Source of the DNA: Opitutaceae bacterium
GTDB taxonomy: Bacteria; Verrucomicrobiota; Verrucomicrobiia; Opitutales; Opitutaceae
Length of the DNA: 64,000 bases
Direction: 5' to 3'
Assembly: GCA_030648295.1 (NCBI GenBank)
Contig: JAUSID010000035.1
Location: 1-64,000 of the forward strand
Shown here: positions 8,079-61,059 of the stretch, piece after piece
Position numbering within the stretch: the stretch's first letter is position 1
Layout: every line of letters begins with the position of its first letter
Notes under the pieces: generated by a model
Told to the model about the DNA's origin: nothing
Databases searched by the model: none
Seen by the model: the letters and a program-made list of their open reading frames with translations, nothing else
Translations under genes and position numbers: made by a program

Positions 8079-8210
8079 AGTGGCTGCGGCTTCCCCGTTC
8101 GACAAGCTCAGGGCCCCGAGAGGGGCAGCTGCAGATGGGATCGAAAGTTCGCTCGAATGTCCCTGCGGCAGAGCCTGCCCTGAGCTTGTCGAAGGGATGC
8201 CGCAGCCACT
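8079..8210. repeat. Long inverted repeat with TTCGACAAGCTCAGG core
   Basis: Arms 8079-8114 and 8177-8210 are near-perfect inverted repeats (AGTGGCTGCGGC at the outer ends, TTCGACAAGCTCAGGGC inside) around a 62-bp loop. The inner core recurs at about 22724-22753. The convergent region 7979-8449 otherwise carries only repeat sequence and no gene. Confidence 0.65.
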
Positions 8211-22673: not shown

Positions 22674-22833
22674 GTGGCACGGGCGTCTCGCCCGTGATCT
22701 TTCGGTGGCATGGGCGTCTCCCTCGACAGGCTCGGGACCCTGAGCTTGTCGAACGGGCCGCCCGTGATTCTTCAAACTTCACCGGCAAGATGCCGGTGCC
22801 ACTGCAAACCCACGGGCGGGACGCCCGTGCCAC
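22674..22833. repeat. Cluster of GTGGCACGGGCGTC repeats with one nested insertion
   Basis: Copies of the palindromic element (GTGGCACGGGCGTCTCGCC type) lie at 22674-22703, 22705-22720, 22780-22802 and 22811-22833. The second copy is interrupted by a CTCGACAGGCTCGGGACC...GAGCTTGTCGA hairpin, then resumes. The 463-bp gap 22407-22869 holds only this and no gene. The same family sits at 28006-28060. Confidence 0.6.
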
Positions 22834-22869: not shown

Positions 22870-25698
22870 CTACGGCACCTCGTACACTTCCACCAGCACC
22901 GATCCGGTCGTGTTGGGTGCGACCACGTTCGTTGGCGTCGTCGTTCCGGGAGCGGCGACCGGCAGTGGGGCCGCGCCGGCTTGCAGCGTGTAATTGCCGG
23001 GCGCCAGCGCGGCCACGAGCGCGGCATCGGAATTCGCGGCCCGGAGCGGAAAGGCGCCGACCGCGGGAAACGCCGCGTTCAGCGTTCCAGCCTGCCCCGT
23101 CGCGCCGCCCTGGCTCCAGTTGTTGTTGGCCGCGACGGCCTGGCCGTTGCCGCCGAGGACCGTCACGCGCGGATCGCCCAACACCGCATCGGCCCCAAGC
23201 CCGAAATCCGTCAGGCCCGGACCAATCGCCCGCACCATCAGCGTGCGCGGATTGTTGCCGACGATGACCAGCCCCGGCACGAGCACTTCGCCGTCCTCGG
23301 AGATTTTCCCAAGCGTGGAAAGATTCGTGAGCCGGCTTGCATTGCGGCTCACGTCGTATACTTCCGCGAGCACGTCACCCGATGCGCCATTCCGCCCGGT
23401 GATCGTGGCCGTGTAAGTTCCCGGTTCGAGGGTGAGCAACAGCGCGGCGTCCGCGTCACCGGGCATGAGGGCAAAAGCGCCGACCGACGTGGCGGCCGCG
23501 GTGATTTGCGCCGCGTTCCCGCCTTTCTCCCAGCCTTCATTGGCAGCGACGAGCGTGGCGCCCTGGTTTACCTCGAGCCGCGGAAGCGGCAGTACGCCTT
23601 CGATGCCGAAACGACCGAGCGCCGGCCCGATGCCGCGGATGAGCAGGGTGGCGCGTTCCGGACCCGCCACATTGAACCCGAGCGTGAACGTGTCGCCGAG
23701 GTAGGCGATCTTCGTGCGCGTGGAAAGATTGACGAGCCGGCCCGGCGGTGGAACGGGTGTGTCGGAGGCGCGGCTGTTCAGGAAGTTGATGATCCTCGGG
23801 CTCCCGTCGCCGTATAATTCGTGCGCGCCGAATGCCACCGCGAGTTGGGCGGCGATGTCCGCGGCGCGGGCCTGCCAGGCAGCGGGCAGGGCGGTCCGCA
23901 CCGCATCGGCCGAAGGCGCGGCGGTCGGATAATAGTTCGCATCCAGCCAGCCCGCGGTCTGCAGCGCGTTCCGGATCGTGTCCACGTCGGCACTCGCGAT
24001 CGGGCCGGAATTCACGCCGATGCGACGTATCCGTGAAGAGTGTACCGGACTCGTGTTGTTGCTGATCACGGCCGTGCCCACGCCGCGGCCGGCGAGAAGC
24101 CGCGAGTTTTCCCGCGCCGCCGCGTTGCCCGCGGTGCCCAAGTCGTTGTCGTGCGAAGCGAGCGCGAAGAGCGCCGGCACATGCGATGTGACCGCCGCGG
24201 TCGTGCCGCCGGTCGCGCAAAAAAGCACCGTGCCTTTCACGCGCCGCGGCGGCGTGGCGGTGGCGAGCAGATCGGCGAAGCGGACCGCCGCATCGCCGCC
24301 CGGGCCAAATCCGAGCAGGAACACCGGCGCATTCGCGGCCAGCCCCTCGCGGGCAAATCGATCGAGCGCCGCGATCAGGCTCAATGCGTCGGGATTGTTC
24401 GCCAGCACGGCCGGCGCGCCCCACGCGCCGGTGTTGCGGTTCACGCTATCCAGCGCCGCCACCCCATAGCCGGCGGCGACGAGATCACGCGCCAGCAGGA
24501 TCTGTTCGGCGCGGGTGAACCAGCTTCCGCCGGCTTCACCGAGGTCGTGCAGGAGAAACACCACTCCCTTCGCGCCCGCCGGCAGGTGGTACGAAATGTT
24601 GGTGTTGAACGTCGTGGTCTGGCCATTGGCGCCGGTGAGGAGGATCGGATTGAAGTTATTGACGGTGACGGGCGCCCACGCCGGCGCCGTTTTGTAGGTC
24701 GCCGTCAGCGTGGTGGGCGTCGCTGGGACGGTGACGACAATGTGCGGCAGCGAGACCGCGATGGCGGCATTGCCCAGGACCGCCGTGTCGCCGGTCCATT
24801 GGTCGAAGACCTGGCCGGAGGGTGGAGGATCGGCGAGAATGTCGACGCGCGAGCCTGACGGAAAGGTGCCGCCGCCGCTGCCCCCGTTGACGGTCAATGC
24901 CACGGTCGGACCATCACCGGTCACAAGCACAAATGCGCGCACCGGCACGGTGAGCAGACGTTGCAGCGTCACGTTGCAGGTGACTTCGACGAGCCCGGGC
25001 GAACCGGGTCGGACGGTGACGGCGTTGGTGCCCTGGCCTCCGAGGATCGCGGCCCCGGCGCCGCTGACCGTCCAGCGGAAGGTGCGGTCGTCGTTCTGCG
25101 CCGCGGGCACGGTCGCCGTGATGTTCGCGACGTTCGTGGCGGCGGTCGCCGGCACCGTGATCTTCCCTGCGTCGGCGGCGGACAAGACGAGGATTTGCGC
25201 CGACGCGCTTTCCACGACCTCCGCGATCGTGATGGCCACGTTGAGCGTGATGCTGCCGGTCGCGTCGGCGATGAATTGGACATTTGGGCGGGTTGGATCG
25301 CTGGTGAGCCTGCCGCCGCTGATCGACCACTGGTAGGTCGCGCCCGCGGCCCCACCGGCGCCGCCACCGGTTGCGAGGATGACGCCGGCCTGGGCGGTTT
25401 TCCCGGCGAGCACCGCCGGATCAGCCACGATCCGCGTGACGGTCGGGGCGGTGGTGCCGCCGCCGCCGGGAGGTCGTCCGACGTTCCCGCCCGGCGGAAC
25501 CACTGTGCCTCCGCCGCCCCCACCACCTCCCGGCGGAACCACCGTGCCTCCGCCGCCCCCACCACCTCCCGGACCAGGCGGCCGTACTTGGGCCACCGCA
25601 GTGTGAAGAAGCAGAAGCCCGAGAATTAACGCGTAATGAAACAGCGCGCGGGGCAGAAACCGCGGGCGGAGGGGTGAACGCGACAGCGAGGGCAGCAT
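22870..25698 (-). CDS. Large secreted protein: Gly-rich repeat, Ig-like modules, alpha/beta-hydrolase-like domain, two C-terminal propeller-type repeats
   Basis: This 942-residue exported protein has a signal peptide to about 36 (HYALILGLLLLHTAVA). Glycine tracts with a 13-residue tandem unit (GGGGGGGGTVVPP, twice) span 43-80. Ig/cadherin-like beta modules span about 85-340 and include the Listeria-type GG-SG-VDILADPPPSGQVFDQWTGD segment. An alpha/beta-hydrolase-like domain at about 350-620 carries GFGPGG where GxSxGG is expected, so the nucleophile position is Gly465. Two homologous repeats of about 120 residues follow (RLVNLSTRTKIAY...VEVYDV and RLTNLSTLGKISE...VEVYEVP), the usual C-terminal cell-surface modules of Opitutaceae secreted proteins. 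Likely a surface binding protein rather than an active esterase (inference). Confidence 0.78.
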   Translation of the reverse strand: MLPSLSRSPLRPRFLPRALFHYALILGLLLLHTAVAQVRPPGPGGGGGGGGTVVPPGGGGGGGGTVVPPGGNVGRPPGGGGTTAPTVTRIVADPAVLAGKTAQAGVILATGGGAGGAAGATYQWSISGGRLTSDPTRPNVQFIADATGSITLNVAITIAEVVESASAQILVLSAADAGKITVPATAATNVANITATVPAAQNDDRTFRWTVSGAGAAILGGQGTNAVTVRPGSPGLVEVTCNVTLQRLLTVPVRAFVLVTGDGPTVALTVNGGSGGGTFPSGSRVDILADPPPSGQVFDQWTGDTAVLGNAAIAVSLPHIVVTVPATPTTLTATYKTAPAWAPVTVNNFNPILLTGANGQTTTFNTNISYHLPAGAKGVVFLLHDLGEAGGSWFTRAEQILLARDLVAAGYGVAALDSVNRNTGAWGAPAVLANNPDALSLIAALDRFAREGLAANAPVFLLGFGPGGDAAVRFADLLATATPPRRVKGTVLFCATGGTTAAVTSHVPALFALASHDNDLGTAGNAAARENSRLLAGRGVGTAVISNNTSPVHSSRIRRIGVNSGPIASADVDTIRNALQTAGWLDANYYPTAAPSADAVRTALPAAWQARAADIAAQLAVAFGAHELYGDGSPRIINFLNSRASDTPVPPPGRLVNLSTRTKIAYLGDTFTLGFNVAGPERATLLIRGIGPALGRFGIEGVLPLPRLEVNQGATLVAANEGWEKGGNAAQITAAATSVGAFALMPGDADAALLLTLEPGTYTATITGRNGASGDVLAEVYDVSRNASRLTNLSTLGKISEDGEVLVPGLVIVGNNPRTLMVRAIGPGLTDFGLGADAVLGDPRVTVLGGNGQAVAANNNWSQGGATGQAGTLNAAFPAVGAFPLRAANSDAALVAALAPGNYTLQAGAAPLPVAAPGTTTPTNVVAPNTTGSVLVEVYEVP

Positions 25699-26988: not shown

Positions 26989-27497
26989 GCAACTCAACCG
27001 CCGGTCGTGTCACCGCCCATAATGGGTGGCACGCTGCCGGTGATGGGCGATGAGTCGGCGTCGGAGGCGAGAAAAGTCCGAAGAGAGAAGAGGCCGATGC
27101 GGAGCCACGCCCTCTGATATTGTGCTCGCGCCCGCGGCCGAGAGTTTGCGGCCGCGCTGCGCGTTGGGCATCACGCTTCCGCTTCGTTGCCGCCGGCGGA
27201 GTTGGCCTCCTCGTTGATCGTCTCGGCACGGTCACGTGTTCCTGCCGGTGGTTCCGCACCGGCGCCGAATGTTGTGCCGCTAATCGCAAAGACTCGCGCC
27301 GCTTTTCATTCGGCTAAATCGCTGTCGAGCTTCCGGTGTCCTCTACCGTCGTGGGCTGCCGCCCTGGGTTGCTGTATCCGCCTTCGACCCAACGCACATG
27401 GCACTCGGCGCGTGGCACTCGCGTTCCCGGAAAAATCGGACGCCCCTCCGTTTTCCCCTCCCGGCGTTGCGCTGCCGCCCATACGCCGCTCGCCAGT

Positions 27498-27622
27498 TTT
27501 GTGTCACACGTGTGACATAATACTGGCAGATGGATTTTGGCTGCCCAGAGCGGACATTCGATCGGTGACCACGAAAGCGACCAAAATAATGTCACACGTG
27601 TGACATAAGATTGGCAGGCCGG
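27498..27622. promoter_or_regulatory. Pair of TGTCACACGTGTGACA palindromes with covarying outer arms
   Basis: The perfect 16-bp palindrome TGTCACACGTGTGACA occurs at 27502-27517 and 27590-27605, 88 bp centre to centre. Around each, at five bases distance, lie further complementary tetrads: CCAG/CTGG at the first copy and CCAA/TTGG at the second. Either paired operators for a dimeric regulator or two related cruciform/RNA hairpins. The region 26989-28059 has no intact gene. Confidence 0.5.
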
Positions 27623-36351: not shown

Positions 36352-36540
36352 CGCACAGCGATCAAATGGAGCCGCGGCGCCCACGCCGCGGCCGACCGAA
36401 CATGAAGAACGCAGGCTGCACGCCTAGGTGAAGGCGAGGGCGAGCCCATGCACGCGAAACGAGGAAAGTGGCTCCCAGCCGCAGCTGGAGGCTTTTGCAG
36501 CGCCGCACGGCATTAATTCCCCCGAATTGCCCCGGCTGAG

Positions 36541-36617
36541 TTTGTCATCTAATAGATGACAAACGTGTCGGTCCCCCACAGGGCGGGCTGGGTGAGTTTG
36601 TCATCTATTAGATGACA
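36541..36617. promoter_or_regulatory. Pair of TGTCATCT-N3-AGATGACA hairpins
   Basis: TGTCATCTAATAGATGACA at 36543-36561 and TGTCATCTATTAGATGACA at 36599-36617 are 8-bp perfect stems with 3-nt loops that are reverse complements of each other (AAT/ATT). So the two sites are the same dyad in opposite orientation, 56 bp apart. They are AT-rich islands in a GC-rich spacer (36352-36693) upstream of the amine oxidase gene, and are good candidates for paired operators. Confidence 0.5.
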
Positions 36618-42420: not shown

Positions 42421-42565
42421 CCGCGGCAGCGTGACCTCCTTTACGGTCTGCATTCCGTTTTGGAGGGCGGCGCTGCTGCTGGGAGCGCGACCGCCCCCGG
42501 TCGCCCATAGGCCAATATTTTTTACGCGATCAGAATTTCATCGTTCTCGTCTTCTTAATCATAAT

Positions 42566-42673
42566 CCCTGGTCGCCTGCGGCGCCGCCAAAGGCGGGTAA
42601 ACCCTGGTCGCCTTCGGCGCCGCCACAGGCGGGTGAACCCTGGCCGCCTACGGCGCCGCCGAAGGCGGGCAAG
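42566..42673. repeat. Three tandem copies of a 36-bp repeat
   Basis: Units are at 42566-42601, 42602-42637 and 42638-42673, each starting CCCTGG(T/C)CGCC and with a GGCGCCGCC core. The period is exactly 36 bp with scattered substitutions that mostly keep the GCC/GGC pairing. A solo copy lies at 108-143. The period of 12 codons leaves a frame open, but there is no coding evidence. Confidence 0.75.
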
Positions 42674-55926: not shown

Positions 55927-58900
55927 TCAAAAGCCGATCGACGCCGAAAATTGAATCTTCCGCGGCGCCTGCTGGGTATAGGCAAAAGGCTGCAGCGCAC
56001 CGGCGACCGTGAAATACGTGGCATACCGCTGGTAGGCCTCATCGAGCAGGTTCGTGATGTTCATCTGGAACCGCAGCGGATATTTTTTGAGCTTCGTGTC
56101 GTAGCCCACCAGGGCGTTGAGCAGCGGAAACCCGCTGGAATAGAGCGTGTTTCCGAGGGGATCGGTGCCCGCGACGCGACGGCCCCGCAGATTCAGCCCG
56201 CCGCCGATCCGCAGGCCCTTGAACGCTCCGGTGCTGAAACGATAGCGCGTGAAGAGGTTGCCCGTGAAATCCACTTTGCCATTGGTCTGCCGGCTGTCCG
56301 GGAACTGCTGGAAAATGCCGTCGATGAAACCGAGGCTCGTGTTCACGGCCGCCACTGCCGCGGGGCCGCTCGCACTCGCCGACGCCAGCCAGCCGGCGCG
56401 ATTCGCCTCGATGAAGGCGCGTGACTCCCGCAGGGAATCCCGGGCATTCACCTTCGGAAAAGCGATGTTGGCCAGCACCGACCAGTTGCGGGTGATATTG
56501 GCCGTGAGGTCCACTTCGACGCCATCCGCATCCAGGGATTGCAGATCGTTATAGTTGGCGGCGAACCGTACCGGCAGACCCAAGGCGGTATAGATTTCGT
56601 TGATACGAAGACCGATCGGCACACTGCTCGCTCCCGCGAGCTGGGAGTTGTTGTTTGTCAGGACGGTGATGATGCTGTTCTCCTCCGTCTGCCAATAGTA
56701 GGAGAAGGCACCCGACACCCGCTCCTCCCAAAGCGTGAACTTCACTCCGACATCCCTGCCGTTACCGATGCGCGGATCGGTGATGGAGCCATCGATCTTC
56801 ACGTTGCCCCCGGAGGTGGCTTCGAAGGACTCCGAATAATTGGCGTAGATACCAAGCCCGGGAAGGATATCGTAGACCGCGCCAGCGGTGGTCGACGTGC
56901 GCGGGAGGGTGCGTCCGCCGCCAAAGTTATAGTCGGGTCTCCGGAAACCGGTCGCGGCGTCGAAGGACGGATTCCAACGCTTGGGTTTGCTTACATCGCG
57001 GCGCACACCGACCAGCGTCTTCAGCCGGCGACCCTTGAACCATGAACCACTGCTGAAGAACTGGAGCGTATCGCTCGTAGCCTCGTTTATGAAACCGCCG
57101 CCCCCACCTCCATTGGTTTCCACAAAGCCGGTCAGGATTCCGCCGACCGAACCCAACCGGCTCGCCTGGTCCATGGCGTTAGGCGCGCCCCGGTCCGCGA
57201 GGTAGGTGTGAAAAATCAAGGAATTGGCGGCCGCCCCGTTCACGGTGCCGTTGTTCAGGCGCTTCAGGCGCAGGACGCGCAGGTGGTTTTCGGTCCACCG
57301 GCTGCTGGCAAACAGGCCGATGTTTTGTTCGAGATAGGGAGTCTTGAGCCGGTAGACCGCGCTCACCCGGATTTCGTCGTAGGAGTTTTCTATGACCCGG
57401 TATTGGTCGCCGTCGCTCGTGCTAAAAACAAACGGTTGGAGGAAAAACGGGTTGGGCTCGACACCGCCGGTCGCCGAAGGGCGGACCTGGTTGATGTCGA
57501 GGAAGATCTCCGTATTTCCCCTCGCCGTTTCACGCCGGCTATCCTCCTGATGCGCGAAGCCTGCCTCCAGGAAGAGCGCCCCTCCGACCTGATGGTTGAT
57601 GGTCGCGGTCACGGCGGTCTGGTCGGTTTCAAAAGAGCGATCGCGCGCACTGGCGGTGAAGGCGCGATAGGGCAACACGCCAATATAGCGGGTGCCATTC
57701 GCCGCGGAGCCCGCCGCCGCCCCGGACAAAACCAGGGGCACGGCGCCGGCGGGCGCCGCCGGCGCCAGCCGGGTCTCGAGCGAAGCGGTGCTCCCGTTGG
57801 TGCGGGCAAAATTCGCCCAGTTTCGGAATCCGAGCTCCTCGTGTCCGTTGATCATCACCAGATATTCGGTCGCACTGGTGCGTTGCGGTAGTGAGACGAA
57901 GCGGTTGGCTCCCGCGGCCGCCGCCGGGTTGGCGGTCAGCGGCGCGGAAACGACCGTCCTTCCGTCCCAACCGGAAATATAATCGCGAAAGGTCGTCGCT
58001 GGCGCGTAATTGACCACATGTCCCCACTCGCCGGAAACCCGCACTTGAGTCCGCGGCAGCGGCTTCCACGTGGCGCTGAGGAAAGCGCCATCGCGATCAA
58101 ACCGCTGGTTGTCGCGCCAGCCGTCCTCACGCGCAGTCACGGCGCTGGCGCGCACCGCGAACCGGTCGCCGAGCGGCTGGTTGACATCCACCGTAAGCCG
58201 ACCGCCGCCAAAGCTGCTGGTCGTCACCCCGAGCGTGGCGAAACGCCGGTCAAATCTGGCTTGTTTGGTCGCCACGTTGGCCACCCCGCCTGAACCGGCA
58301 TCGCCGAAGACCAGCGTATTCGGTCCGCGGGAAATATCGATGCGCTCGGTGTTATAGCCATCGGAATTCAAGTTCCAGACGAAGTAGTCGCGGGTCACGC
58401 GTGCCTTCGCAATCCCGCGGATGGTCACAGTCGCCTGATCGACCTGGTTGCCCGGCGCGCTCGACAGCGCGGTTCCGATGGCGTCGGTATTGGTATCGGT
58501 CTCACCCATCGGAATCGAATTGGTGGCGTAGAGCATCGCCGAACTGAAATCCTGCGCGCCGATGTCGTCGAGAAACTCCCGGGTCAGAACCGAGATCGAT
58601 CCCGGGGTATCCTTGATCTCCGTGGCCAGGCGACCGCCGGCCAGAGTATTGGCGGCGGTGTAGCCGTAGTCCTTGTCGGAGGTGACTTCGAACGGCGAGA
58701 GCTGCACGAGCTCGCCGGGCTTTTCCGACGAGCTCGACGATTCGGCGGCACCTGCTGCCGGCGCCAGCATCAGGGTGAACGTGGCGGCAATACGGGTGAA
58801 AAGGCTGCTGGTTTTCATGGATGACGGACTCTTCGGTGGCGGACTCGTGGGTGGCGGGGCAGGCGCTGCGGGCGCCGTGGGCGCCGCCGGCGGCGGGGCG

Positions 58901-59205
58901 GGGGCGGCGCGATTGATCAAAAGCGCACCGGTCTTCTCGTCCTTCACGACGATCAGCGCGGTATTGGCCAGCATGCGGTCGAGCACTTCGCGCGCGGTGA
59001 ATTCGCCCTGCACCGAGTGCGTCTTCACGCCGCGCACCTTGGGCACGACGTAGATCACCTGCTCGCCCGATTGCTCGACGAACTGCCGCAGCGTCGTCGC
59101 GGCGTCGCCGCCGGCGAGCTGATAGTGCCGCTTCACGGCCGCGGTCGCGGCGCGCACCGCCGGCAACAGTGCTGCCAGCACGAGGAGAATCACCACCCGG
59201 CGCAT
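55927..59205 (-). CDS. STN-domain TonB-dependent transducer/receptor with two signal peptides
   Basis: This outer-membrane receptor of 1092 residues is of the FecA/FoxA transducer type. The signal peptide is MRRVVILLVLAALLPAVRA; the STN (secretin/TonB short N-terminal) domain spans about 27-112 (YQLAGGDAATTLRQFVEQSGEQVIY ... REVLDRMLANTALIVV). A Pro/Ala linker follows. At residue 130 a second, complete signal-peptide-like sequence begins (MKTSSLFTRIAATFTLMLAPAAGAAE), then the usual verrucomicrobial receptor start VQLSPFEVTSDKDYGY. The plug has ATVTIRGIAKARV and TERIDISRGPNTLVFGDAGSGGVANVATK; the barrel ends in PRKIQFSASIGF. FecR and sigma genes precede it, so it should signal ligand occupancy to them. 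ATG 58818 is an alternative start without STN. Confidence 0.92.
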   Translation of the reverse strand: MRRVVILLVLAALLPAVRAATAAVKRHYQLAGGDAATTLRQFVEQSGEQVIYVVPKVRGVKTHSVQGEFTAREVLDRMLANTALIVVKDEKTGALLINRAAPAPPPAAPTAPAAPAPPPTSPPPKSPSSMKTSSLFTRIAATFTLMLAPAAGAAESSSSSEKPGELVQLSPFEVTSDKDYGYTAANTLAGGRLATEIKDTPGSISVLTREFLDDIGAQDFSSAMLYATNSIPMGETDTNTDAIGTALSSAPGNQVDQATVTIRGIAKARVTRDYFVWNLNSDGYNTERIDISRGPNTLVFGDAGSGGVANVATKQARFDRRFATLGVTTSSFGGGRLTVDVNQPLGDRFAVRASAVTAREDGWRDNQRFDRDGAFLSATWKPLPRTQVRVSGEWGHVVNYAPATTFRDYISGWDGRTVVSAPLTANPAAAAGANRFVSLPQRTSATEYLVMINGHEELGFRNWANFARTNGSTASLETRLAPAAPAGAVPLVLSGAAAGSAANGTRYIGVLPYRAFTASARDRSFETDQTAVTATINHQVGGALFLEAGFAHQEDSRRETARGNTEIFLDINQVRPSATGGVEPNPFFLQPFVFSTSDGDQYRVIENSYDEIRVSAVYRLKTPYLEQNIGLFASSRWTENHLRVLRLKRLNNGTVNGAAANSLIFHTYLADRGAPNAMDQASRLGSVGGILTGFVETNGGGGGGFINEATSDTLQFFSSGSWFKGRRLKTLVGVRRDVSKPKRWNPSFDAATGFRRPDYNFGGGRTLPRTSTTAGAVYDILPGLGIYANYSESFEATSGGNVKIDGSITDPRIGNGRDVGVKFTLWEERVSGAFSYYWQTEENSIITVLTNNNSQLAGASSVPIGLRINEIYTALGLPVRFAANYNDLQSLDADGVEVDLTANITRNWSVLANIAFPKVNARDSLRESRAFIEANRAGWLASASASGPAAVAAVNTSLGFIDGIFQQFPDSRQTNGKVDFTGNLFTRYRFSTGAFKGLRIGGGLNLRGRRVAGTDPLGNTLYSSGFPLLNALVGYDTKLKKYPLRFQMNITNLLDEAYQRYATYFTVAGALQPFAYTQQAPRKIQFSASIGF

Positions 59206-59260
59206 GGCATCAGCCGAGCGGCACACGCGGAGAAAAAACGGGGTTACGGATTGCAGCATT

Positions 59261-59353: not shown

Positions 59354-60451
59354 CTATTTTCCTTTCCGCAACACGATCCGCGCCGGATCCGTTTGCTCGG
59401 CCACAATGTCGTTGCCCGCCGCCAGCAGCCGGACGAACGCATCGACGTTCTCCGGCCGGAAACTGCCGCCAATCGGCAGCGACTCGAGCTCGGCGTCGGC
59501 CAGGACCAGTTGCACGTGGCTGCGCCGGTTGAACTGCGCGACCGCCTCGGCGAGTGGCGTATCCACAAATACGAGGCGTGGCCCCTGCCAGGCGAGCGCC
59601 GCGCGGACGGCCTCGGGCGCGAGCCTTTCCACGACAGGCGGCGATATCGCCTTCATAGCCGCGATCGGGACGACGGCACGCTCGTTGGCGATAAGGAATG
59701 TGCCTGAAGGTGGAGCGCGTTGTCCCCAACGCGCTTGGGCGGGGTTCCTGGCTTCGGAAACCGCGTTGGGGACAACGCGGTCCACCTCCGAGCCGACCTC
59801 CACCTTCCCCTCGGTCACCAGCACCTCGACGTCGCTCGGGCCGAGCCGCACGTTGAAGGCCGTGCCCACCGCGCGCACGGCCACCGCACCCGCTTCGACC
59901 ATGAATGGGCGCTCCTGGTTTTTCGCCACGGTGAAATGCGCCTCGCCCCGCACCAGCCGCACGCGCCGCGCCGCGGGCGTGAATTGCACGGTCACCTCGC
60001 TGCTCGAATTCAGTTCGAGCAGGGAGCCGTCCTCGAGCACGACGCGCTCGTAGCCATCGGCCGTCGTTGCGTAACGGTGCGGCGGAAGTTCCGCCACGTG
60101 GCCGGAGCCCGTGTACCACCACGCCGCCGCGAGCACGAGCGAGGCGGCGAGCGCGGCGGCGGCGGTCGCGGGAAACGGCCTCACGCGCCGAACGGTCGAT
60201 CTTGTCCGCAGCAGATCGCGATCCGGGTGCAGGCGGGCCTCCGGCCGAAAATCGCGGAGCTGCTGCAGCGTGGCCCACGTTGTCTCGAGCCGCGCCGCCG
60301 CTTTTTCGTGACGCGCATCAGCCGCCCGCCACTGGGCGAAGTCCGCCTTATCCACGGTCGAGAGGCCGTCATCGCGCTGCGCCAGCCACGCGGCGGCGGT
60401 CGCCTCAATCGCTTCGTCGTCGGAGGGCCGGGGGCAGTCATTTCGTTTCAT
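59354..60451 (-). CDS. fecR: FecR-family anti-sigma factor with in-frame repeat insertion
   Basis: This inner-membrane anti-sigma/signal relay protein has 365 residues. The DUF4880-like cytoplasmic helix region is at about 13-70 (AAWLAQRDDGLSTVDKADFAQWRAADARHEKA). The membrane helix is at about 94-112 (ATAAAALAASLVLAAAWWY), with the periplasmic FecR beta domain to about 220 (RVVLEDGSLLELNSSSEVTVQF, VRLVRGEAHFTV, VRAVGTAFNVRL). The C-terminal STN-like domain is at about 280-362 (FVDTPLAEAVAQFNRRSHVQLVL). Residues 222-248 are encoded by a 78-bp palindromic repeat (59709-59786) that kept the frame. It overlaps the sigma gene by ATGA. It should hold and activate the sigma factor in response to the receptor's STN domain. 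Confidence 0.9.
   Translation of the reverse strand: MKRNDCPRPSDDEAIEATAAAWLAQRDDGLSTVDKADFAQWRAADARHEKAAARLETTWATLQQLRDFRPEARLHPDRDLLRTRSTVRRVRPFPATAAAALAASLVLAAAWWYTGSGHVAELPPHRYATTADGYERVVLEDGSLLELNSSSEVTVQFTPAARRVRLVRGEAHFTVAKNQERPFMVEAGAVAVRAVGTAFNVRLGPSDVEVLVTEGKVEVGSEVDRVVPNAVSEARNPAQARWGQRAPPSGTFLIANERAVVPIAAMKAISPPVVERLAPEAVRAALAWQGPRLVFVDTPLAEAVAQFNRRSHVQLVLADAELESLPIGGSFRPENVDAFVRLLAAGNDIVAEQTDPARIVLRKGK
59709..59786. repeat. Palindromic repeat inserted in the fecR coding region
   Basis: Arms 59709-59733 and 59762-59786 (25 bp each, starting GGTGGA and ending GTCCACC) match at 24 of 25 positions as inverted repeats, with a 28-bp loop. Each arm itself contains the palindrome CGCGTTGTCCCCAACGCG. 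The length, 78 bp, equals 26 codons. Confidence 0.75.
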
Positions 60452-61059
60452 GTTTCATCCTCCACCTTCGGCCGGCGCAGCGTGCGGACGCCGCGCGCCT
60501 CGAAATAGTCGGCGCAACGCCGCATTCCCTTGGCGAGCTGCGCCTTCACCGTGTGCTCCGAAATCCGCATTTCGGCGGCAATCTGTTTTTGCGAGAATCC
60601 ATAGAGCAGCCGGAGCGTAAGCACTTGGCGACACCGGTCAGGCAAGTCGCGCACGGCTTCAGAGAGTAGCGCGAGTTCCTGCTGTTTGTTGACGGCCTCG
60701 GCTGCGTCCGGCCGATCTTCCATGACGGACAACGCGCCGGGATCGGCTACGCATTCGATGGAAACGACCTTGCGGCGGCGGAAAAAATCGAGCGCCGCGT
60801 TGCGCGCGGTCGTAAACAAAAACGCCTTCGCATAGGTCACCCGGCCGGTTTCCTTCGCCCGCAACAAGCGCGCATACGACTCCTGCACGAGATCATCGAT
60901 GTCGGGCAACGAAGGAAACACCGCGCGCAGGTAGGAGCGGAGCGATGGCTCGTGCGGCTGCACTTCGTCGGCAAACCATCTCGACAGGCTGCGGTCCGGC
61001 AGGCCCATGGCCGGCGACGACGCCGGCAGCGGAATTTGATCGGATGGGTGAGTGCTCAC
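60448..61059 (-). CDS. ECF-type RNA polymerase sigma factor (FecI-like)
   Basis: The protein has 203 residues. Sigma region 2 is FPSLPDIDDLVQESYARLLRAKETGRVTYAKAFLFTTARNAALDFFRRRKV. Region 4 is LPDRCRQVLTLRLLYGFSQKQIAAEMRISEHTVKAQLAKGMRRCADYF, with the helix-turn-helix. There is a GTG start; the first 35 residues are a flexible leader, and ATG within it (MGLPDRS) is an alternative. It is directly coupled to fecR (ATGA) and precedes the STN receptor, the standard sigma/anti-sigma/transducer order. It should direct transcription of the receptor and perhaps the glycan genes downstream. Confidence 0.93.
   Translation of the reverse strand: MSTHPSDQIPLPASSPAMGLPDRSLSRWFADEVQPHEPSLRSYLRAVFPSLPDIDDLVQESYARLLRAKETGRVTYAKAFLFTTARNAALDFFRRRKVVSIECVADPGALSVMEDRPDAAEAVNKQQELALLSEAVRDLPDRCRQVLTLRLLYGFSQKQIAAEMRISEHTVKAQLAKGMRRCADYFEARGVRTLRRPKVEDET

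Follow-up and report, generated by a model that had tools for sequence, protein, structure and literature searches.

The window analysed here is a stretch of 64,000 nucleotides from an Opitutaceae bacterium (assembly GCA_030648295.1, contig JAUSID010000035.1, positions 1 to 64,000 of the forward strand). Its minus strand carries an operon-like set of three genes, all intact: an ECF-type sigma factor, a fecR gene and a TonB-dependent receptor (Table 1). The product of the middle gene has the attributes of a FecR anti-sigma protein, namely a FecR domain (PF04773, 3e-21), an ECF sigma factor encoded upstream and a Plug-domain receptor encoded downstream; its Pfam architecture is DUF4880 (residues 19-57), FecR (126-218) and FecR_C (292-349, just under the cut-off). 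The Gly-Thr pair in the motif AVGTAFNV (residues 196-197), about 25 residues ahead of the repeat described below, does not vary among 40 sequences. Self-cleavage of FoxR-type regulators takes place at such a Gly-Thr pair.

Table 1 Features of the fecR locus in the window and of the repeat lying inside fecR.
Feature	Position	Strand	Evidence or remark
TonB-dependent receptor, STN-like N-terminal part, downstream of fecR	55927..59259	-	Pfam Plug; STN below cut-off
fecR-type anti-sigma gene, 365 aa	59354..60451	-	ORF list and Pfam
Variable loop serving as slot, codons of residues 219-255	59689..59797	-	Length variation and low pLDDT
REP arm 2 (gene order, inverted)	59710..59733	-	Translates R-W-G-Q-R-A-P-P
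Spacer, 28 nt	59734..59761	-	Equal length, differing sequence across all ten fecR dimers found
REP arm 1 (gene order), GTGGACCGCGTTGTCCCCAACGCG	59762..59785	-	Translates V-D-R-V-V-P-N-A
ECF-type sigma factor	60448..61059	-	Pfam Sigma70_r2 and r4; stop overlaps fecR start

A repeat search located an inverted repeat within fecR (29-nt arms at 59708-59736 and 59759-59787, 93% complementary, 22-nt gap), of which the REP dimer proper takes up 59710-59785 on the minus strand: two 24-mers in inverted orientation, GTGGACCGCGTTGTCCCCAACGCG and then GTGGAGCGCGTTGTCCCCAACGCG in gene order, with 28 nt between them. Each arm is a REP unit consisting of the head GTGGA and a hairpin with a seven-base stem (CGCGTTG/CAACGCG). 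The fecR reading frame remains open through the whole dimer, as the initial annotation had held when it described an in-frame palindrome of 78 bp; the palindrome is real, but its limits are those of the two 24-mers, and although 78 bp are indeed 26 codons long, the segment 59709-59786 does not hold exactly 26 codons, its ends lying off the codon boundaries and the first full REP codon being that of residue 223. The RNA of positions 59690-59810 (minus strand) folds at -68.6 kcal/mol, compared to -45.6 ± 3.8 kcal/mol for shuffled sequences (z -6.1). A scan of the window with the arm core returned two matches, both exact (0.26 expected at up to 3 mismatches; two reached in 2 of 100 shuffles).

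The arm had been expected to be an interspersed repeat with further copies in the genome, and this was confirmed: allowing up to 3 mismatches, a search of the 9.1 Mb host genome with the 24-mer GTGGANCGCGTTGTCCCCAACGCG gives 23 matches, of which two are the fecR arms, and the reversed control gives 0. The host has a modest number of copies. Arm matches occur in 21 of 57 genomes of the nearest relatives, the highest number being found in G088 (379 at up to 2 mismatches; controls 0), and exact REP dimers with spacers of 15-45 nt occur in 36 of 252 genomes of the bacterial family (G and L numbers are our labels for genomes and loci). An arm variant common in G003 (GTGGAGCCCGTTG..CAACGGG) has both sides of the stem changed (compensating GCCCG..CGGG). 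GTAG-superfamily REPs have a 5-13 bp stem and a GTAG-like head left unpaired; they lie mostly between genes, and some of their families are associated with Y1 tyrosine transposase (RAYT) genes. The window element is an inverted REP dimer of this superfamily: it has the palindrome with an unpaired head, the many interspersed copies and the inverted dimers, the head being GTGG rather than GTAG.

The main text of the survey of these repeats (PMC3733652) reports that intragenic copies of GTAG-superfamily REPs are most numerous in Opitutus terrae, that most GTAG-20 elements of this species have the head GTGG, that head-bearing units pair as inverted dimers, and that more than half of the intragenic inserts are dimers or groups encoding 20-30 residues, for which the authors suggest flexible linkers or loops. 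The GTGGA repeat resembles the O. terrae GTAG-20 elements, as described there, in its short palindrome, its unpaired GTGG head, its inverted dimers and its intragenic copies; its membership of this numbered family is a lead, suggested by the GTGG head. Two inverted REPs with a spacer also recall REPINs, which are described as REP doublets mobilised by RAYT (PMC3116915). Unlike the REPINs of that description, the fecR copy is intragenic, and no associated RAYT was found for the GTGGA family in the loci scanned: 0 of 11 Y1_Tnp matches in the host genome have a REP of this family, and among 30 Y1_Tnp loci scanned in four REP-rich relatives (of 53 matches) just one has it, at the locus edge (L240). 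A RAYT adjoining the repeat in the host was accordingly dropped as a candidate.

The initial annotation had placed the repeat between the FecR beta domain and the C-terminal domain, and the Pfam boundary at residue 218, taken by itself, would suggest such an inter-domain linker. An AlphaFold2 model of the window FecR (40 sequences, mean pLDDT 86.2) contradicts this placement. Residues 222-248 are modelled as a poorly predicted loop between the strands 216-221 and 251-254, with pLDDT values of 63, 52 and 59 in successive blocks of ten residues and of 96 and 97 in the adjoining blocks, indicating that the REP site is, as predicted by the model, a beta-hairpin loop lying where the FecR beta domain ends. 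In all likelihood the repeat encodes no new domain but a flexible loop that the protein tolerates, and this peptide would be nearly neutral.

The same slot was compared in 103 distinct fecR homologues, a non-random collection ranked by likeness to the window protein and composed of three sets, duplicates removed (30, 67 and 6 sequences, with 7, 9 and 5 REP carriers respectively; the last six were found with a REP-bearing query). The GTGGA arm (up to 4 substitutions) is present in 21 of the 103, as ten dimers and 11 single arms. A second, unrelated palindrome with the classic GTAG head (GTAGGGCCGGCGCTTGTCGCCGG, GTAGGG) is present in eight, seven of them at up to 4 mismatches and L168 weakly, at 5; these rows were picked by eye first and then checked with a pattern whose background in the host genome is 21 matches, against 9 for the reversed controls. 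In the remaining 74 the segment has neither palindrome. The heads begin 12, 3 or 15 nt after the conserved VTEGKV, in 16, four and one of the GTGGA carriers and in five, two and one of the GTAGGG carriers, always in the same frame, so that all 29 palindromes start at three codon positions and 27 of them at two. Arms with up to 2 mismatches number 31 in the 8,784 bases of the segment (spread over 20 of the 103 loci), 0 in the 97,200 bases of the remaining fecR sequence and 0 in the 437,014 bases of the flanks of the 103 loci. The insertion had been predicted to be absent from relatives, and this is so in the 74 homologues with neither palindrome, but not in the 21 that have the same REP, which is not private to this gene. 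Nor is the repeat a segment that most orthologues encode with different DNA, given those same 74.

The addition of a linker peptide by a mobile repeat, without breakage of the protein, was likewise correct in part: the repeat is read through and the gene is intact, but no clean addition is seen. A stretch of equal length is present in L067, the closest relative lacking the REP (77 versus 75 residues), and in ten close pairs of genes the segment is replaced as a whole. Across the homologues the median length of the segment (residues 218-254) is 36 aa in the dimers, 23 in the single-arm genes and 23 (15-55) in genes with neither palindrome. The loop has other occupants as well: in L065, L066, L094 and L114, minisatellite-like repeats stand in place of REPs (GGAGGACGGAAGAC-type; ACCACGGACT-type in L114). 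L105 (294-1400) has a third arm, in which arm 2 is directly duplicated in frame over 33 nt (KPTRWGQRAPP KPTRWGQRVPP). Two loci have doubtful host labels: L105 is on a contig of a MAG labelled Flavobacteriaceae and probably misbinned, and L094 (VFZP01000271.1), with a fecR 59% identical to that of the window, is in a MAG labelled Acidobacteria, by misbinning or transfer. L203, L247 and L253 were rejected as additional fecR dimers, their weak matches spanning the REP only and the genes not being fecR.

The distribution of the repeat among these genes is patchy. On a fecR tree built from 277 columns, with the segment excluded, the GTGGA label requires at least 11 changes, fewer than in any of 200 shuffles (mean 19.4, lowest 15); the carriers are therefore clustered but do not form a single clade, and the grouping of all 21 as one clade is rejected (p-AU 3e-67). 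Ten close pairs that differ in state have identities of 0.66-0.93 upstream, 0.32-0.53 in the segment and 0.70-0.93 downstream (for instance 0.93, 0.46 and 0.90 for L122/L150, and 0.82, 0.43 and 0.91 for L126/L141). L122 is nested among nine relatives which have one other loop in common, indicating that its REP loop is a derived replacement. L141, L184, L088 and L134 have GTAGGG next to GTGGA-bearing relatives, and L090/L092, read by eye, look like chimeras, with a GTGGA arm followed by a tail resembling the GTAGGG cassettes. A single old insertion in an ancestral FecR, inherited vertically and lost many times, would account for the constant spacing and position of the dimers; the gain in L122, which already strains it, the GTAGGG genes placed beside GTGGA carriers and the number of label changes make it a highly improbable explanation.

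The dimers of fecR have one overall length, 76 nt in 10 of 10 (nine without the near-copy L105/L175). Among the matches listed from an exact scan of 252 genomes, this length was found in 0 of 74 non-fecR dimers, the commonest being 73 nt (77 of 122 dimers were listed, three of them in fecR, and lengths come from the listed dimers). Among non-fecR pairs read by eye, the fecR spacing was present in one of 18 (after omission of one self-palindromic match and of pairs separated by over 100 nt). The one non-fecR dimer with fecR-type spacing lies in G017 C38, and the spacing is therefore rare, not unique. Fisher comparisons of these counts are descriptive only, treating the fecR dimers as independent, contrary to a reading by common descent. 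The GTGGAA form of arm 2 was dropped as a fecR marker, because GTGGAG/GTGGAA mixed dimers, the type of most fecR dimers, are not confined to fecR but appear elsewhere in several other genera.

In-frame REPs inside or between recognised domains were also found outside fecR, with ORF spans assessed at 52 REP loci and 30 dimer loci. They lie in two LplA-type ligases (L039:1144-1929 and L054:1105-1887), between the domains of an OGG-type DNA glycosylase (L037:1039-2022), in an HI0933-type flavoprotein (L267:705-2126) and after the kinase domain of a Ser/Thr kinase (L269:3-2591). All five read arm 1 as V-E-R-V-x-P-N-A, the frame used in FecR; the second arm of L267 and L269 is in another frame than that of FecR. 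In the two ligases the in-frame arm occupies the same loop and is followed by differing sequence; this loop is possibly a second slot. L003, L004, L021, L059, L063 and L263 were not counted, because their REP precedes the recognised domain, in a part where the real start of the protein is uncertain.

These genes bear on the view that REPs landed in fecR repeatedly and independently, by a RAYT-type process, only in-frame copies in a tolerant loop surviving; the arms would be alike because the copies are young, and the spacers would differ because each dimer brought its own. The in-frame REPs in the other genes fit this view, as do the fecR spacers, which differ while the arms agree, and the two unrelated families at the same codon positions, which need at least two arrivals. 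Against it are the 76-nt length shared by all ten fecR dimers and so rare elsewhere, the replacement of flanks and loop together rather than a sequence split by an insert, the lack of GTGGA-family REPs at the host Y1-transposase loci, and five genomes with virtually no other copies: in G278 and G063 the sole arm match is the one in fecR, G277 and G280 each add one weak match to the one in fecR, and G279 has two, both in fecR (control matches also two). We consider such independent landings unlikely. Low copy number in G275 was excluded from this series, its contig being the probably misbinned L105.

Common descent of the dimers combined with the exchange of whole loops fits best, and we favour, with a probability of about 0.6, a permissive REP slot in the fecR loop whose contents are exchanged between fecR genes. 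The slot would be the beta-hairpin loop with which the FecR beta domain ends, a permissive site; a REP dimer with its own particular spacing would have settled there during the history of the bacterial family, would have been inherited and moved between fecR copies by recombination replacing the whole loop, would in some lines have lost part of its length, leaving single arms, and elsewhere would have been replaced by the second REP family or by repeat-free loops. Recombination is the presumed carrier; the path of exchange was not seen directly, and vertical inheritance with many losses can yield the same scatter. Fresh insertion from the pool of mixed GTGGAG/GTGGAA dimers outside fecR may also have taken place.

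The arms of the dimers are conserved beyond what the protein asks for. Between dimers, arm identity is 0.91 and 0.87 (0.94 and 0.84 at third codon positions), compared to 0.57 in the spacer (third positions 0.42) and 0.65 in the 60 nt upstream (third positions 0.49). Fourfold-degenerate sites differ in 30 of 252 comparisons in the arms, in 534 of 1171 in the beta domain and in 262 of 567 in the C-terminal domain; base differences in the spacer are 339 of 784, spacer and flanks being saturated. For dimer pairs with less than 75% protein identity, a shared residue has the same codon in 397 of 434 cases within the arms and in 3184 of 5716 elsewhere. Judging from these silent sites, protein constraint alone does not explain the conservation of the dimer arms. 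Such likeness indicates that the hairpins are maintained at the nucleic-acid level or that the arms are renewed by copying from other REPs, and each of these would meet a difficulty. General constraint is disfavoured because the single arms of the clade L106/L093/L193/L091 vary like the beta domain (fourfold differences of 8 in 30 in the arm versus 75 in 395 in the beta domain, summed); the single arms of L126/L159/L171/L172 do not differ (0 in 27 versus 78 in 388). Renewal is disfavoured because the five genomes named above have virtually no other copies.

The REP hairpin could thus be kept as nucleic acid, for instance as a coding-region mRNA hairpin slowing ribosomes after the beta domain, or tuning the amount of FecR relative to the sigma factor and the receptor. 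The codon and fourfold-site counts, the strong predicted fold of the RNA and the persistence of pristine or near-pristine arms in genomes with virtually no other copies are what such a role would lead one to expect. The 74 homologues that manage without either palindrome, the single-arm clade, whose arms change no more slowly than the gene around them, and loop bases that do not always match between the two arms of a fecR dimer argue the other way, and we hold this role to be distinctly unlikely as the main explanation. Combining it with the exchangeable slot gives a further, doubtful possibility: a dedicated FecR slot, its DNA being a site at which REP hairpins dock and are exchanged, in which the hairpins are kept as nucleic acid, even in genomes almost devoid of other copies, and seed the recombination that swaps loops between fecR paralogues. 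If that were true, a selfish repeat would have become an active element in the variation of a large family of surface-signalling genes.

A gene that is read through a REP is a kind of case already published for this bacterial family. What appears to be new, from the sequence comparisons, is the number of cases at one fixed fecR slot, together with the unexplained silent-site conservation. The core idea, that a mobile palindrome has become coding sequence of a signalling protein, was right, but "added a peptide" is too simple for one of many cases at a fixed slot. In the main text of PMC3733652 the sole gene given with same-site REPs is recB, in two Xanthomonas species, REPs otherwise lying at different sites; the fecR slot differs from the REPs described there in having two families in many genes, block replacement and silent-site conservation. 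We found no published case of a REP in fecR: the string "fecr" is absent from that main text, and Additional file 3 of the article, on REP-bearing ORFs, may name one. Rickettsia palindromic elements, as described in the same article, are similar in being palindromes read through in frame in functional genes; they have other sequences and hosts and are analogues by description only, and that description includes no single slot for two repeat families. REPs in genes are usually listed as scattered, tolerated accidents, whereas here one loop has been filled repeatedly, by two families, at the same codon positions. With the fecR case it becomes testable whether intragenic REPs are ever anything beyond passengers, and the REP loop can serve to mark exchange among fecR paralogues, which make up a large family of regulatory genes in these bacteria.

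Similar palindromes had been stated to occur otherwise only between genes; this is broadly right for the window, but the GTGGA REP also lies inside the other genes of the bacterial family listed above. The palindrome pairs at 36534-36617, 1-90 and 2812-2959 do not overlap ORFs of at least 150 aa; those at 27492-27617, 22674-22833 and 8095-8196 overlap only ORFs of 166, 185 and 179 aa (GC3 0.67, 0.61 and 0.75); and the pair at 181-308 has a few-base contact with the end of a 471-aa ORF. The pairs at 36534-36617 and 27492-27617 consist of nested self-complementary units (TGTCATCTAATAGATGACA and TGTCACACGTGTGACA) and look like further REP-like families. The window also contains two tandem repeats, at 25487-25564 (39 nt) and 42562-42669 (36 nt).
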